Of a stretch of DNA of 64,000 nt, positions 27,240 to 63,605 are shown in pieces (the stretch's first letter is position 1; each line of letters opens with the position of its first letter). This stretch comes from Gelidibacter sediminis (GTDB lineage: Bacteria > Bacteroidota > Bacteroidia > Flavobacteriales > Flavobacteriaceae). The position numbers and the translations under genes were made by a program. The notes below the pieces were generated by a model that saw only the letters and a program-made list of their open reading frames with translations, did no database searches and was not told the DNA's origin. The stretch spans positions 62,001-126,000 of the forward strand of contig NZ_SOBW01000008.1 of assembly GCF_004364975.1 (NCBI RefSeq), in the 5' to 3' direction.

Positions 27240-27379
27240 TAGGCAATCTTCAGTAAGCAGTTTTCAGTAGGCAGTTCTCATTAAGCAGTTCTCAGTAGGC
27301 AGTCTTCTGTTGACAGACTCCAGCATTCAGCATCCAGCATTCAGCATCCAATATTCAGCATTCAGCATTCCGTATTCTG
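27240..27379 (+). repeat. Degenerate heptanucleotide array (20 x 7 bp) downstream of era
   Basis: The 140 bases divide into ten 14-base units without slippage, for example TAGGCAATCTTCAG, TAAGCAGTTTTCAG, TAGGCAGTTCTCAT and CATTCAGCATCCAG, each made of two 7-base halves ending in or containing CAG(T). The first six units follow CAGTNNN; the last four drift to CAGCATY. The rest of the 311-base gap before the next gene also contains a short run of a second heptamer, ACCTNNN (27489-27509), and nothing else I can identify. Confidence 0.9.
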
Positions 27380-32350: not shown

Positions 32351-32392
32351 GCTGTAGACTGAAGGCTGCCAACTGAAGACTGCCAACTGAAC
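32351..32392 (-). repeat. Heptanucleotide array (6 x 7 bp) after the barrel gene
   Basis: Reading the plus strand, the units are GCTGTAG, ACTGAAG, GCTGCCA, ACTGAAG, ACTGCCA and ACTGAAC, in exact 7-base register, that is CAGTNNN on the minus strand. Between it and the next array (32393-32519) lies a degenerate CACAGAG-rich stretch (32405-32442) with no gene. Confidence 0.8.
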
Positions 32393-32519
32393 AAGTTATT
32401 AAACAGAGCTTCACAGAGGAGCACAAAGTTACACAGAGAGACGACTAAAAGTTAAATTTATTATTTTGTATAGAAAAATTTTAAACTAGATAGGTCAACA
32501 AGAAGATTTTAGGTGGCTT

Positions 32520-32568
32520 ACTGAGAACTGCTTACTGCTTACTGCAGACTGCAAACTGAGTACTGAAA
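32520..32568 (-). repeat. Heptanucleotide array (7 x 7 bp) abutting the TPM gene stop
   Basis: Seven units in exact register (ACTGAGA, ACTGCTT, ACTGCTT, ACTGCAG, ACTGCAA, ACTGAGT, ACTGAAA) end one base before the stop codon of the minus-strand TPM gene. On that gene's sense strand the array reads CAGTNNN. Confidence 0.85.
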
Positions 32569-38803: not shown

Positions 38804-39049
38804 TTGTCATTCCGAGGTACGAGGTATCACATAACACCGTATTCATTAAAAGAAGATACGGTGTCATAAAAATTGGAAGCAATTATTAATAGACAACATT
38901 ATTGTTTGGCAGTCCTCAGTTGGCAGTCTTCAGTTGGCAGTCTACAGTTGGTAGTTTTCAGTTTGCGGTTTTCAATTGGCATTCTGAAGCAAGAGATCTT
39001 TTTGTCATTCCGAGGTACGAAGAATCACATAACACTGTATTCATCAAAA
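38804..39049 (+). repeat. Pair of 48-50 bp direct repeats (copies at 38804-38851 and 39002-39049)
   Basis: Both copies read TTGTCATTCCGAGGTACGAR, then a few variable bases, ATCACATAACAC, YGTATTCAT, with a handful of substitutions. They flank the heptanucleotide array at 38906-38989. The first copy also contains a perfect 9-bp hairpin, ACACCGTAT (38834-38842) with ATACGGTGT (38856-38864). Similar GTCATTCCGAGG sequences are common dispersed repeats in Bacteroidota genomes. With the array they fill the 359-base gap between alaS and the GSCFA gene, and I see no gene there. Confidence 0.8.
38906..38989 (+). repeat. Heptanucleotide array (12 x 7 bp, as 6 x 14 bp) downstream of alaS
   Basis: Six 14-base units without slippage: TTGGCAGTCCTCAG, TTGGCAGTCTTCAG, TTGGCAGTCTACAG, TTGGTAGTTTTCAG, TTTGCGGTTTTCAA and TTGGCATTCTGAAG. 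Divergence grows toward the distal end. Orientation is CAGTNNN on the strand of alaS. Confidence 0.92.
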
Positions 39050-52676: not shown

Positions 52677-52923
52677 CACAAATTTTTAATCCAAGCCAAG
52701 ACATGAATACTTCACGCAACAAGTTTTGATTCTTGATTCTAGCGGCGCAGCGGTCTATTTTCTATTTTCAACAGCGCAGCGGTCTTAATTCACTTTTGAC
52801 ATGAATTTCACAAATTTTTAATCCAAGCCAAGACATGAATACTTCGCGAAACAAGTCTTGATTCTTGGTTCTAGCAGCGCAGCGGTCTATGTTCTATTTT
52901 CAACAGCGCAGCGGTCTTGATTC
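52677..52923. repeat. Tandem duplication (two 115-bp units, 132 bp apart)
   Basis: Copy 1 is 52677-52791 and copy 2 is 52809-52923. Both run from CACAAATTTTTAATCCAAGC through GACATGAATACTTC and two motifs with the core GCGCAGCGGTCT to the end, differing at about ten positions. The GCGCAGCGG core is thus present four times here and once at 50884. The duplication fills the 324-base gap between the esterase and the next gene. No ORF of interest is inside. Confidence 0.9.
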
Positions 52924-59348: not shown

Positions 59349-60134
59349 TTATCTGTTTAAATCTTTGATAAATTGTGAGGCACTGTCGCCCGCATTATCT
59401 GTTTTCATAAAATTTTCACCAATTAAAAACCCTTTGTAACCGTAAGGTTGCAAGGCTTTGATCGCCTCAACGCTGCTAATGCCACTTTCAGATATTTTTA
59501 CAAAATCATCAGGGATTAGCGTGCTCAACTGTTTACTCGTTTCTAAGCTGACCTCAAATGTTTTTAAGTTGCGATTGTTGACACCCATCATGTCTAGACT
59601 AGGCATGACCGATTTATGTAATTCTTCCTCATTATGAATTTCTAAAAGCACTTCTAAATTTAAGCTTTTTGAAAGTTCGGACAATTGCTTAATCTCTTGA
59701 CGAGATAATACCGCGGCAATAAGTAAAATAACATCAGCACCATAAGCTTTGGCTTCAATAATTTGATACGGATCAATAACAAATTCCTTGCGGAGTAATG
59801 GCAACTGACAACTTGCTCTAGCTAAGAGTAAATCGTCCAATGAGCCTCCAAAATATTTGCCATCGGTTAAAACAGACATCCCACAAACGTCAGCAGCTTC
59901 ATAACCTTTGGCGACGTCAAAAACATTCAGATTTTGATTGATGACAGATTTGGAAGGTGAGCGCCGCTTGTGCTCGGCAATAATTCCAGAAGTACTCGCT
60001 TTCAATCGTTCCGTAAGTGATATGGTCGATTTCTCAAAGAAAACCGAGTGCTCTAATTGAGACACAGGGATAATTGATTTTTTTAAATCAACTTCCTTGC
60101 GTTTGTCAGCGATGATATGGTCTAATATGTTCAT
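59349..60134 (-). CDS. trpC: Indole-3-glycerol-phosphate synthase
   Basis: A 261-residue TIM barrel. GIIAEHKRRSPSKS near 49-62 holds the catalytic lysine and the anthranilate pocket, VLTDGKYFGGSLDDL near 88, LPLLRKEFVIDPYQI near 109 (second lysine), and SESGISSVEAI near 215 closes the phosphate site. It is a standalone TrpC, not fused to TrpF. A 151-base gap filled by an inverted heptanucleotide array separates it from trpD. Confidence 0.97.
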   Translation of the reverse strand: MNILDHIIADKRKEVDLKKSIIPVSQLEHSVFFEKSTISLTERLKASTSGIIAEHKRRSPSKSVINQNLNVFDVAKGYEAADVCGMSVLTDGKYFGGSLDDLLLARASCQLPLLRKEFVIDPYQIIEAKAYGADVILLIAAVLSRQEIKQLSELSKSLNLEVLLEIHNEEELHKSVMPSLDMMGVNNRNLKTFEVSLETSKQLSTLIPDDFVKISESGISSVEAIKALQPYGYKGFLIGENFMKTDNAGDSASQFIKDLNR

Positions 60135-60156: not shown

Positions 60157-60291
60157 AGTCTTCAGTCTTCAGTCCTCAGTCCTCAGTTTTCAGTATTCAG
60201 TCCTCAGTCCTCAGTCTTCAGAGTTTGGACTGCAATCTTCCCACTGCCAACTGCAGACTGACTACTGCCCACTGATCCCTGCCAACTAATC
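60157..60291. repeat. Inverted heptanucleotide arrays in the trpD-trpC gap
   Basis: Plus-strand half A (60157-60219) is nine units AGTCTTC/AGTCCTC/AGTTTTC in exact register. After a 23-base spacer, half B (60243-60291) is seven units (ACTGCCA, ACTGCAG, ACTGACT, ACTGCCC, ACTGATC, CCTGCCA, ACTAATC). Half B is the reverse complement type of half A, since CAGT and ACTG are complementary, so the transcript can fold into a long imperfect stem with about four paired bases per heptamer. The trpD stop codon (60286-60288) lies inside half B. Confidence 0.92.
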
Positions 60292-61281
60292 CTTGCTTAT
60301 GCTCACTAATCGTTCAAATTTCTCCTTTGTTTTACCTCCCAACAACGATTCTTTGGCTAAACCGAAACTGTCTTCTAACGATTTTTTTGTCACAGTAGCA
60401 ATGGCCATTGCGGCATTGGCACACACCACGTTATTTTGAGCCTCGGTACCTTGACCGTCTAGGATGTCTACAAAAATTTTAGCTGCAGATGCTACCGAAT
60501 CGCCTCCATATATTTCAGTTTGGTTTAAGGTGTCAACACCGAAAAACTGAGGATTAATAATCGTTTCTGAAGCATTTCGGATCACTTTTGCCGGTCCAGT
60601 TAATGAGATTTCATCATAACCATCTAAAGCATGTAGAATGGTGTAATTGATATCTGTATTTTGATAAAGATAGCCGTACATGCGCAGTAATTCCAAATTA
60701 AAAACGCCAACAAGTTGATGTTTAGGAAACGATGGATTCACCATTGGGCCTAACATATTGAAAAAGGTTTTAACCCCCAAATCCTTACGAATGGGCGCTA
60801 CATTTTTCATGGCAGGATGAAAGAGTGGTGCGTGCAATATGCATATGCCAATTTCATCTAAAGACCGCTTTAGGAAATCGATGTCCTTGGTGAACTTAAT
60901 CCCTAAAAATTCCATGACGTTAGAGGATCCGCAAGCAGATGATACGCCGTAATTGCCATGTTTGGTGACATTAACACCTGCACCCGCAGTCACAAAAGAA
61001 GCTAGTGTTGAAATATTAAACGTGTCCTTACCATCGCCGCCGGTGCCGCATAAATCGATGCCATTGTAATCGGCCAGATCAACGTGTAAACATAATTCTA
61101 AAAGTGCGTCTCTAAACCCTTGCAGTTCTTCAATAGTTACGCTTCGCATCATATAAACTGTCAAGAATGATGCTATTTGACTTTGATTATATGCGCCTTT
61201 AGAGATGTTGACCAACACGTGTTTGGCTTCATCGCTTGAGATGCTTTCTTGATTGATGAGTCTGTTGAGTATATGTTTCAT
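60286..61281 (-). CDS. trpD: Anthranilate phosphoribosyltransferase
   Basis: A 331-residue TrpD that transfers phosphoribose from PRPP to anthranilate. The ATG at 61281 (MKHILNRL) is preferred to the upstream extension. CGTGGDGKDTFNISTLASFVTAGAGVNVTKHGN near 76-108 is the PRPP loop, and LGPMVNPSFPKHQLVGV near 175 is also conserved. Separate from trpG. The last codons are built from the repeat units described at 60157-60291. Confidence 0.97.
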   Translation of the reverse strand: MKHILNRLINQESISSDEAKHVLVNISKGAYNQSQIASFLTVYMMRSVTIEELQGFRDALLELCLHVDLADYNGIDLCGTGGDGKDTFNISTLASFVTAGAGVNVTKHGNYGVSSACGSSNVMEFLGIKFTKDIDFLKRSLDEIGICILHAPLFHPAMKNVAPIRKDLGVKTFFNMLGPMVNPSFPKHQLVGVFNLELLRMYGYLYQNTDINYTILHALDGYDEISLTGPAKVIRNASETIINPQFFGVDTLNQTEIYGGDSVASAAKIFVDILDGQGTEAQNNVVCANAAMAIATVTKKSLEDSFGLAKESLLGGKTKEKFERLVSISKD

Positions 61282-61350: not shown

Positions 61351-61450
61351 AGTCTTTAGTACTCAGTCTTCAGTCTTCAGTCCTCAGTTCTCAATAATCT
61401 GCAGACTTTCTGCCAACTGCTTACTGCTTACTGCCTACTATTTACTGATT
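61351..61450. repeat. Inverted heptanucleotide arrays in the trpG-trpD gap
   Basis: Half A, 61351-61392, is six units (AGTCTTT, AGTACTC, AGTCTTC, AGTCTTC, AGTCCTC, AGTTCTC) plus a decayed one to 61399. Half B, 61409-61450, is TCTGCCA, ACTGCTT, ACTGCTT, ACTGCCT, ACTATTT, ACTGATT. The halves are inverted, as in the trpD-trpC gap. The trpG stop (61442-61444) and its last two codons lie within half B. Confidence 0.92.
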
Positions 61451-62008
61451 AACCCAATTTTCCAAAATCTTTTTACCATGTGGTGTCAACACCGATTCAG
61501 GATGAAATTGTACGCCTTTCAAGTCATATTCTTTATGACGTATGGACATTACTTGACCGTTTTCATCTAAAGAGGTGGCTTCTAAAACCTCAGGTAAATT
61601 AGGATCGACCACCCACGAATGGTAACGTCCAACTTCAAATGTGTTTTCCAATCCATTAAATAACGATTCGTCAGTAACCGATTGTGTTACATTGGTCGAT
61701 ACGCCATGATAAACCGTATCTAAGTTGATTAGGGAGCCACCATAAACTTCACCAATAGCTTGCTGCCCTAAACAAACTCCCAAAATACTTTTAGTTGGGG
61801 CATAGGTTTTTATAATGTCTTTTAATAATCCGGCTTCATCAGGAATTCCTGGGCCTGGAGAGAGTACGATTTTTTCAAAGGCCTCTACATCATCCAAGCT
61901 CAGTTGGTCATTTCGTTTTACAGTAACTTCACAGCCTAAGTCTTCTAGATAGTGCACCAAATTGTAGGTAAAGCTGTCGTAATTATCTATAACTAATACT
62001 TTTTTCAT
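61442..62008 (-). CDS. trpG: Anthranilate synthase glutamine amidotransferase component
   Basis: A 188-residue class-I glutamine amidotransferase supplying ammonia to TrpE. VIDNYDSFTYNLVHYLEDLG opens it, the nucleophile is C79 (LGVCLGQQAIGEVYGG), and VQFHPESVLTPHG near 166-178 completes the triad. TrpE specificity over PabB is inferred from the operon. It begins two bases after the trpE stop. Confidence 0.97.
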   Translation of the reverse strand: MKKVLVIDNYDSFTYNLVHYLEDLGCEVTVKRNDQLSLDDVEAFEKIVLSPGPGIPDEAGLLKDIIKTYAPTKSILGVCLGQQAIGEVYGGSLINLDTVYHGVSTNVTQSVTDESLFNGLENTFEVGRYHSWVVDPNLPEVLEATSLDENGQVMSIRHKEYDLKGVQFHPESVLTPHGKKILENWVNQ

Positions 62009-63429: not shown

Positions 63430-63470
63430 TTAAAAAAGAAAAAGGCTTGTCGTGAATGACAAGCCTTTTT
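63430..63470 (-). terminator. trp operon attenuator (leader terminator)
   Basis: On the minus strand AAAAAGGCTTGTC (63470-63458), a six-base loop, and GACAAGCCTTTTT (63451-63439) form a perfect 13-bp stem followed by TTCTTTTTT, ending about 16 bases before the trpE ATG. A free 6-base segment of the leader, TCGTGA (63508-63503, overlapping the leader stop), is complementary to TCACGA in the terminator's loop and 3' arm and could act as the antiterminator. Confidence 0.9.
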
Positions 63471-63502
63471 TATATTAAATTTAAATATACAATAGCGTTA
63501 CC

Positions 63503-63559
63503 TCACGAATGTTGTTTCGAAAAGTTCCACCACCAAGTATGATTTAAAATTTTGTACAT
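63503..63559 (-). CDS. trpL: trp operon leader peptide
   Basis: An 18-residue peptide, MYKILNHTWWWNFSKQHS, with three consecutive TGG codons. It starts 9-15 bases after the expected transcription start and stops 33 bases before the terminator stem. The run of Trp codons directly ahead of a terminator in front of trpE is the hallmark of ribosome-mediated attenuation: with little charged tRNA-Trp the ribosome stalls at WWW and leaves the antiterminator segment free, otherwise it runs to the stop and the terminator forms. This layout resembles the Bacteroid-trp RNA class described by comparative genomics. Confidence 0.92.
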   Translation of the reverse strand: MYKILNHTWWWNFSKQHS

Positions 63560-63573
63560 AATTATTGTTTTGC

Positions 63574-63605
63574 CAAATATAGAAATGAAAAATTTAGTTT
63601 TCAAA
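63574..63605 (-). promoter_or_regulatory. trp operon promoter
   Basis: On the minus strand TTTG (63605-63602, -33 element) and TATATTTG (63581-63574, -7 element) are 20 bases apart, matching the Bacteroidota consensus. Transcription should start near 63568, just before the leader peptide ATG. Confidence 0.8.

Follow-up and report, generated by a model that had tools for sequence, protein, structure and literature searches.

The gap between trpD and trpC of Gelidibacter sediminis raises the question of what kind of element is formed by two facing arrays of degenerate heptanucleotides, CAGTNNN and ACTGNNN, within an operon. The window analyzed is a stretch of 64,000 nucleotides from this genome, and its minus strand corresponds to the trp operon mRNA with the gene order G-D-C-F-B-A (names from sequence and order). 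The parts of the locus are the following:

61442..62008, minus strand: trpG, named from sequence and operon order
61416..61450, minus strand: 5' arm of a second hairpin, overlapping the trpG 3' end; CAGT heptads on the mRNA, four of five exact
61364..61391, minus strand: 3' arm of this second hairpin, within the gap between trpG and trpD; ACTG heptads on the mRNA, four of four exact
60286..61281, minus strand: trpD, the gene upstream of the focal hairpin, named from sequence and operon order
60229..60277, minus strand: 5' arm of the focal hairpin, CAGTNNN heptads on the mRNA; on the plus strand, ACTG exact in six of seven units
60219..60242, minus strand: loop separating the arms and holding one isolated unit, from sequence and fold
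60163..60218, minus strand: 3' arm of the focal hairpin, ACTGNNN heptads on the mRNA ahead of the trpC start; on the plus strand, CAGT exact in eight of eight units
59349..60134, minus strand: trpC, the gene downstream of the hairpin, named from sequence and operon order

The 5' arm starts about 11 nt or less past the stop codon of trpD, which is TAG. On the plus strand, TRF reported 9.3 copies of the CAGT heptad from position 60157, a lone ACTG follows the final CAGT unit at a distance of 10 nt, and ACTG units recur regularly from 60243 onward. The initial annotation had counted nine CAGT units facing seven ACTG units across a 23-base spacer; both arrays were confirmed, with exact counts of eight of eight and six of seven on the plus strand, and the spacer is 24 nt, so that the earlier figure is about right provided the isolated ACTG unit is left out. 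The fold of 171 nt reached -52.3 kcal/mol (z -4.9), a value equaled in none of 200 shuffles, and the periodic, degenerate hairpin claimed for the operon mRNA is thereby borne out, although pairing of CAGT with ACTG in every unit holds for most units and not for all; the NNN triplets pair partially in the predicted stem. The trp feature is certainly a real two-armed heptad element.

Arrays of at least three units occurred eight times in the window, whereas 30 order-2 Markov copies averaged 0.03 each, and at least three CAGT followed by at least three ACTG within 130 nt were found from eight start positions in the window and in none of 100 order-3 Markov copies. Further CAGT/ACTG arrays, each in a single orientation, lie in other gaps at 27251-27306, 32358-32568, and 38910-38965. 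In the whole genome, the exact three-unit pattern CAGTNNNCAGTNNNCAGT matched 205 times and the reversed pattern never. Paired arrays, for which a genome search had been suggested, were found at four places (CAGT then ACTG, two exact units each, 0-30 nt apart), all in this one order and none in the opposite one.

The orientation of 41 arrays in 31 clusters, among the matches listed, was compared with genes taken as mechanical ORFs of at least 90 aa. For 26 of these 41 arrays, a predicted gene end is no more than 35 nt away, and there 18 CAGT arrays and one ACTG array follow a stop and seven ACTG arrays and no CAGT array precede a start. The sole exception is an ACTG array after the stop of an S23 gene, a place at which a 3' arm is expected. 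The 15 farther arrays among the matches listed comprised eight ACTG arrays at stops, four ACTG arrays at starts, two CAGT arrays at stops, and one CAGT array at a start. The CAGT clusters among these matches fell into 22 co-directional, six convergent, and three divergent gaps, counts that stand without a genome background. The refuting observation named in the initial annotation, an absence of paired orientation in other genomic copies, was encountered in part: 26 of the 31 clusters listed have one orientation only, and 25 of the 26 near-gene arrays obey the polarity. Random microsatellites would not give such a strict orientation relative to genes and are ruled out as a full account by this polarity together with the Markov controls. 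This polarity at stops and starts is a rule for which every model of the repeats has to account.

Past the stem, the mRNA reads ACUAAAAAAAGAG, an A-tract instead of a U-tract, which excludes an intrinsic terminator, and no Rfam family matched the hairpin above its gathering score, which excludes a known riboswitch; on both points the first description of the element stands. The only Rfam match in the window was the Bacteroid-trp leader RNA (RF01692) at 63458-63579 on the minus strand, upstream of the trp operon, with 57.8 bits.

The same gap was then compared among nine species, that of the window and eight further genomes of the genus; among the named loci, the one whose trpD comes closest to that of the window is from G. 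maritimus, at 90% identity. Lag-7 identity of the trpD-trpC gap ranged from 0.30 to 0.79 and was at least 0.52 in seven of the nine species, and the fold was significant in three (z -4.9, -5.7, and -3.8), with z from -1.7 to 0.2 in the remaining six. More species thus retain the seven-base period than the pairing; of the element first described, sister genomes share the heptads more often than the stem. At loci L115, L116, and L118, the downstream heptads are, by eye, of the ACAGAGA or CACACAA kind and are not complementary to CAGT. A functional mRNA element, whose stem would set trpC-F-B-A expression or protect the mRNA, had been put forward in the initial annotation, and the strong folds in both trp gaps of the window's species and two sister species (z -2.8 to -5.7), with trpG-trpD arms of similar length (by eye) within each of these three species, speak for it. 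Such an element is nevertheless unlikely, given that the trpD-trpC fold is non-significant in six of nine congeners and that this gap is often 0-30 nt across 80 named relatives; a conserved RNA regulator at the trpD-trpC gap is rejected on the three folds in nine, and control of trpC-F-B-A by a conserved stem was not supported.

Gaps in the trp regions of relatives were scored as heptad arrays when a 35-position window was at least 66% identical at lag 7. This was the case in 23 of 325 co-directional, none of 22 convergent, and two of 69 divergent gaps; the two divergent gaps pass at nearly every lag, and with gaps holding N runs set aside all 23 passing gaps are co-directional. At lags besides 7 and 14, at most four of the 325 co-directional gaps pass. 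An inverted partner within the gap (reached by at most 14 of 200 shuffles) accompanied 11 of the 23 heptad arrays and was absent from 12, in a count to which self-complementary units alone can contribute. The units include AATAGAG, AAGTGAG, AAGCTAG, AATACTG, AAACTTT, and more, and one heptad family replaces another from species to species at a given gap. The architecture that recurs is one of arrays with varied heptad sequences, running from a stop codon and often followed by an inverted array. If a DNA-binding protein recognized CAGTNNN sites in an array with 7-bp (21-bp) phasing, this would account for a constant CAGT and a free NNN over many loci; such a binding array is highly improbable, since unrelated heptad families take these positions in relatives. 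This replacement among species suggests a passenger that is tolerated, and the trp hairpin is most likely a passenger of the mRNA whose effect on trpC and the genes after it is mild at most.

Between the heptad arms of some trp gaps in relatives lies a small ORF, and S23 genes were therefore used as a starting point. With a profile built from S23 loci, S23 (PF05635) was found in four of 160 trp gaps of other genera, three trpD-trpC and one trpG-trpD; the other trp-gap ORFs are GIY-YIG-like, GNAT-like, or other (named by eye). S23 matches are present in all nine genomes of the genus (6 to 13 per genome), in 45 of 60 genomes of the family sample, and in 90 of 118 of the phylum sample, and one copy in the window's genome lies behind a hairpin of 11 CAGT and 12 ACTG units. 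Flanks were examined at 30 loci of the genus (of 78 matches), at one locus in each of 29 other genera of the family, at 30 phylum-sample loci that include four from the window's family, and at 15 loci of cyanobacterial plasmids, of which 14 were counted since two are near copies. The last three samples played no part in forming the S23 idea, and orthologous loci within the samples are non-independent. Over 70 nt upstream and 70 nt downstream of the S23 ORF, lag-7 self-identity was 0.425 and 0.435 in the genus (30 of the 78 matches), 0.450 and 0.426 in the family, 0.372 and 0.385 in the phylum sample, and 0.495 and 0.469 in the cyanobacterial plasmids, and lags except 7, 14, and 21 gave 0.24-0.37. 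Complementarity of a flank to its own partner exceeded that to a swapped partner in the genus (14.9 vs 9.4), the family (14.5 vs 9.2), the phylum (15.3 vs 8.7), and the cyanobacterial plasmids (17.6 vs 9.7), and none of 10000 permutations of flank partners reached the observed mean in any of the four samples. On average, therefore, S23 flanks carry the heptad period and complement each other, both in the three samples of the window's phylum (89 loci) and in the 14 cyanobacterial plasmid loci.

As a control, 27 other small ORFs were treated in the same way, a small and mixed set with seven GIY-YIG-like ORFs (assigned by motif) and a GNAT-like ORF with heptads. The whole control also showed complementary flanks (13.9 vs 10.4, 0/10000) because the seven GIY-YIG-like ORFs have non-heptad inverted repeats; the 20 ORFs that are neither S23 nor GIY-YIG-like gave 10.8 vs 9.7 (629/10000). 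Complementary flanks are thus not peculiar to S23. Among gaps of at least 55 nt, 24 of 82 next to an S23 gene passed the lag-7 test at 66%, compared with 23 of 325 co-directional gaps of the trp regions (p 4e-7), and lag 8 passed in five of the 82. In the predicted RNA, computed on 40 loci drawn at random from the 89, the upstream flank pairs on average 22.9 bases with its own downstream flank and 9.9 with a swapped one. Whether compensatory changes occur, the absence of which had been named as a refutation, was addressed at two orthologous gaps: in a shared gap ahead of a gene that by eye resembles an acyltransferase, with 19 loci of differing heptads, arms matched their own partner better than a swapped one (10/5000), and in a second shared S23 gap with 10 loci the match was weaker (145/5000). 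S23 genes are co-directional with both neighbors in 29 of 30 loci of the genus, 29 of 29 of the family, and 22 of 30 of the phylum sample. Some loci show low flank pairing; at L144, L145, L148, and L209 arrays of the same orientation lie on both sides of S23 within 120 nt, and none was seen at L210. From the sequence type of S23, the type of heptad can be predicted poorly if at all (Pearson 0.12, 10/2000; Spearman 0.03, p 0.08).

Both forms of the architecture are seen at the ffh-folD gap (genes named by eye). In four of nine species, it holds an S23 gene preceded by a CAGT arm and followed by an ACTG arm, and internal stops interrupt two of the four genes; in four others, CAGT remnants alone follow the stop codon (by eye); the gap of the window's species has neither arms nor S23 (by eye).

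A parallel is provided by the intervening sequences (IVSs) of 23S rRNA. The Coxiella IVS has GACAGAT heptamers before the S23p gene, two or three by strain, and a 28-bp stem with RNase III cutting, and S23p is described there as having no known function (PMC4990558). On an Azospirillum plasmid, a 23S rRNA gene (Rfam LSU match 400 to 3000 of L252) contains an unannotated S23 gene in the same strand sense as the rRNA; the S23 gene is preceded by the arm GACGGAT GACAGAG GACGGAG GACAGAA and followed by the arm CCGTCCT CTGTCTT CTGTCAT CCGTCTT (both by eye); lag 7 in the 3' arm is 0.57 and other lags 0.09-0.39. Heptads nearly identical to these arms flank S23 of the genus before a threonine-synthase-like gene (by eye; L132, L135). 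The features shared with the rRNA IVSs of Coxiella (PMC4990558) and Azospirillum are complementary arms, heptameric arm repeats, and, in full members, S23. The termini of the focal element likewise form a stem (z -4.9), whereas it sits between trpD and trpC instead of inside an rRNA gene, and its gap is too short to hold an ORF between the arms.

The position of the arrays points to stop codons. The upstream genes of elements end in TAG in 37 of 88 cases against 120 of 745 in the background, and 25 of 33 5'-arm units contain a stop codon in the sense strand against 11 of 33 in antisense, the corresponding figures for 3'-arm units being nine and 13 of 26. Since orthologous loci are non-independent and the TAG background consists of trp regions of one family, S23 loci being partly from other families, the p-values of these comparisons are too small. 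The TAG excess and the in-sense stops of the 5'-arm units suggest that the arrays may grow out of the stop codon. The same numbers would suit plain satellite DNA, in which slippage from a stop-codon heptamer and drift produce the arrays, template switching inverts the arms, and S23 merely settles there; perfect single-arm arrays of differing units (AATAGAG, AAGTGAG, AAGCTAG) that start at stop codons, as well as the turnover of heptad families at one gap, also agree with it. This account is possible but doubtful, because it has to meet the fixed CAGT/ACTG polarity at stops and starts, the complementarity of arms kept at orthologous S23 gaps, the greater frequency of heptads in gaps beside S23 than in other gaps, and arms of the same kind in an rRNA IVS.

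The trp hairpin is best read as an S23-less member or remnant of an IVS-like intercistronic class built of two inverted degenerate-heptad arrays, with a probability of roughly 0.55. The focal hairpin has the inverted heptad arms, the 5' arm at the stop codon, and the polarity of the class, and S23 is carried neither by the hairpin nor at the trpD-trpC gap of any of the nine congeneric species (gaps 67-197 nt). Membership in the S23-associated class is likely from the arrangement of the arms, and indirect because no S23 occurs at the trp gap in the genus. Full members would carry an S23/TIGR02436 four-helix-bundle ORF between the arms, and the same architecture within 23S rRNA would be the IVS. 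The arms probably change length by slippage in 7-nt steps and may fold together in the mRNA so that the operon tolerates the insert; by analogy with rRNA IVSs they could be cut by RNase III, and S23 may bind the stem. More tentatively, heptad hairpins, S23/bAvd-like genes, and rRNA IVSs may be one widespread IVS-like element of bacterial transcripts, with arms grown from stop codons that S23 binds or drives; solo hairpins such as that of trp would then be non-coding derivatives, and the heptamer repeats of Bacteroidota and Cyanobacteria debris. The shared architecture offers a testable explanation for S23p (PMC4990558) and for the heptamer repeats (PMC4679880), and indicates where to look besides rRNA, namely in operon gaps directly after stop codons. 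Heptad repeats and IVSs are each already known. No literature joining heptad arrays in operons with S23 was found, in a search thin on subscription journals, and the Coxiella IVS paper was the only one found there to connect inverted or heptameric repeats with S23 or four-helix-bundle genes.

The cyanobacterial STRR are heptanucleotide arrays. Heptamer arrays are reported for Beggiatoaceae, Cyanobacteria, and Bacteroidetes, with their origin left open (PMC4679880), and the LSSR of Mrazek 2007 are cited in the same paper as heptanucleotide arrays. The TAACTGA repeats of that paper, LSSR, and STRR share intergenic tandem heptamers, 7-nt length steps, and occurrence in Bacteroidetes and Cyanobacteria. 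The TAACTGA repeats are direct, with one indirect repeat mentioned, whereas the focal arms are inverted and their units are CAGTNNN/ACTGNNN, so that the focal element is not a TAACTGA repeat; neither a general occurrence of inverted arms nor any link to S23 appears in the distribution section and summary of that paper (PMC4679880). The P6b stem of the Nostoc tRNA-Leu intron consists of degenerate seven-nucleotide motifs, in two classes that swap at one site, and shares with the focal hairpin a stem built from degenerate heptads, but it belongs to a group I intron in a tRNA gene (PMC4476775). In Flavobacterium columnare, a four-helix-bundle gene between two other genes is described, with no comment on repeats in that part of the report (PMC5524665). 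The TIGR02436 model matched one S23 of the window's genome and two cyanobacterial S23s above its cut-off, and the likeness to Avd of diversity-generating retroelements is a weak match of three S23 proteins (E 2e-6 to 4e-9, below the cut-off). By sequence, 2rld and 2gsc are solved relatives of S23.

Several further loci were observed beside these. The GIY-YIG-like ORFs (by eye) at L039 9216-9519, L047 8819-9119, L076 8832-9117, and L077 8927-9212 are flanked by inverted REP-like palindromes, for example TTTCCGCGAAGGCGGAAAT, in a parallel layout without heptads. A GNAT-like gene (by eye) lies amid several heptad families in a Flavobacterium trpG-trpD gap (L107 4469-4877). On a Gemmatirosa plasmid, the S23 gene (L251) has a CCTCCTGC-like downstream array with an apparent period of 8 and lacks inverted heptads. 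Within the window, a 132-bp tandem repeat at 52677-52923 contains the heptad-like words TTGATTC and TCTATTT and the phrase GCGCAGCGGTCT. Cyanobacterial plasmid S23 genes were also found inside CRISPR operons (L209, L215, and L216), twice between cas6 and cas4 and once between cas10 and Cmr3, where the heptads on the two sides of L209 share one orientation and L215 and L216 are flanked by inverted repeats.
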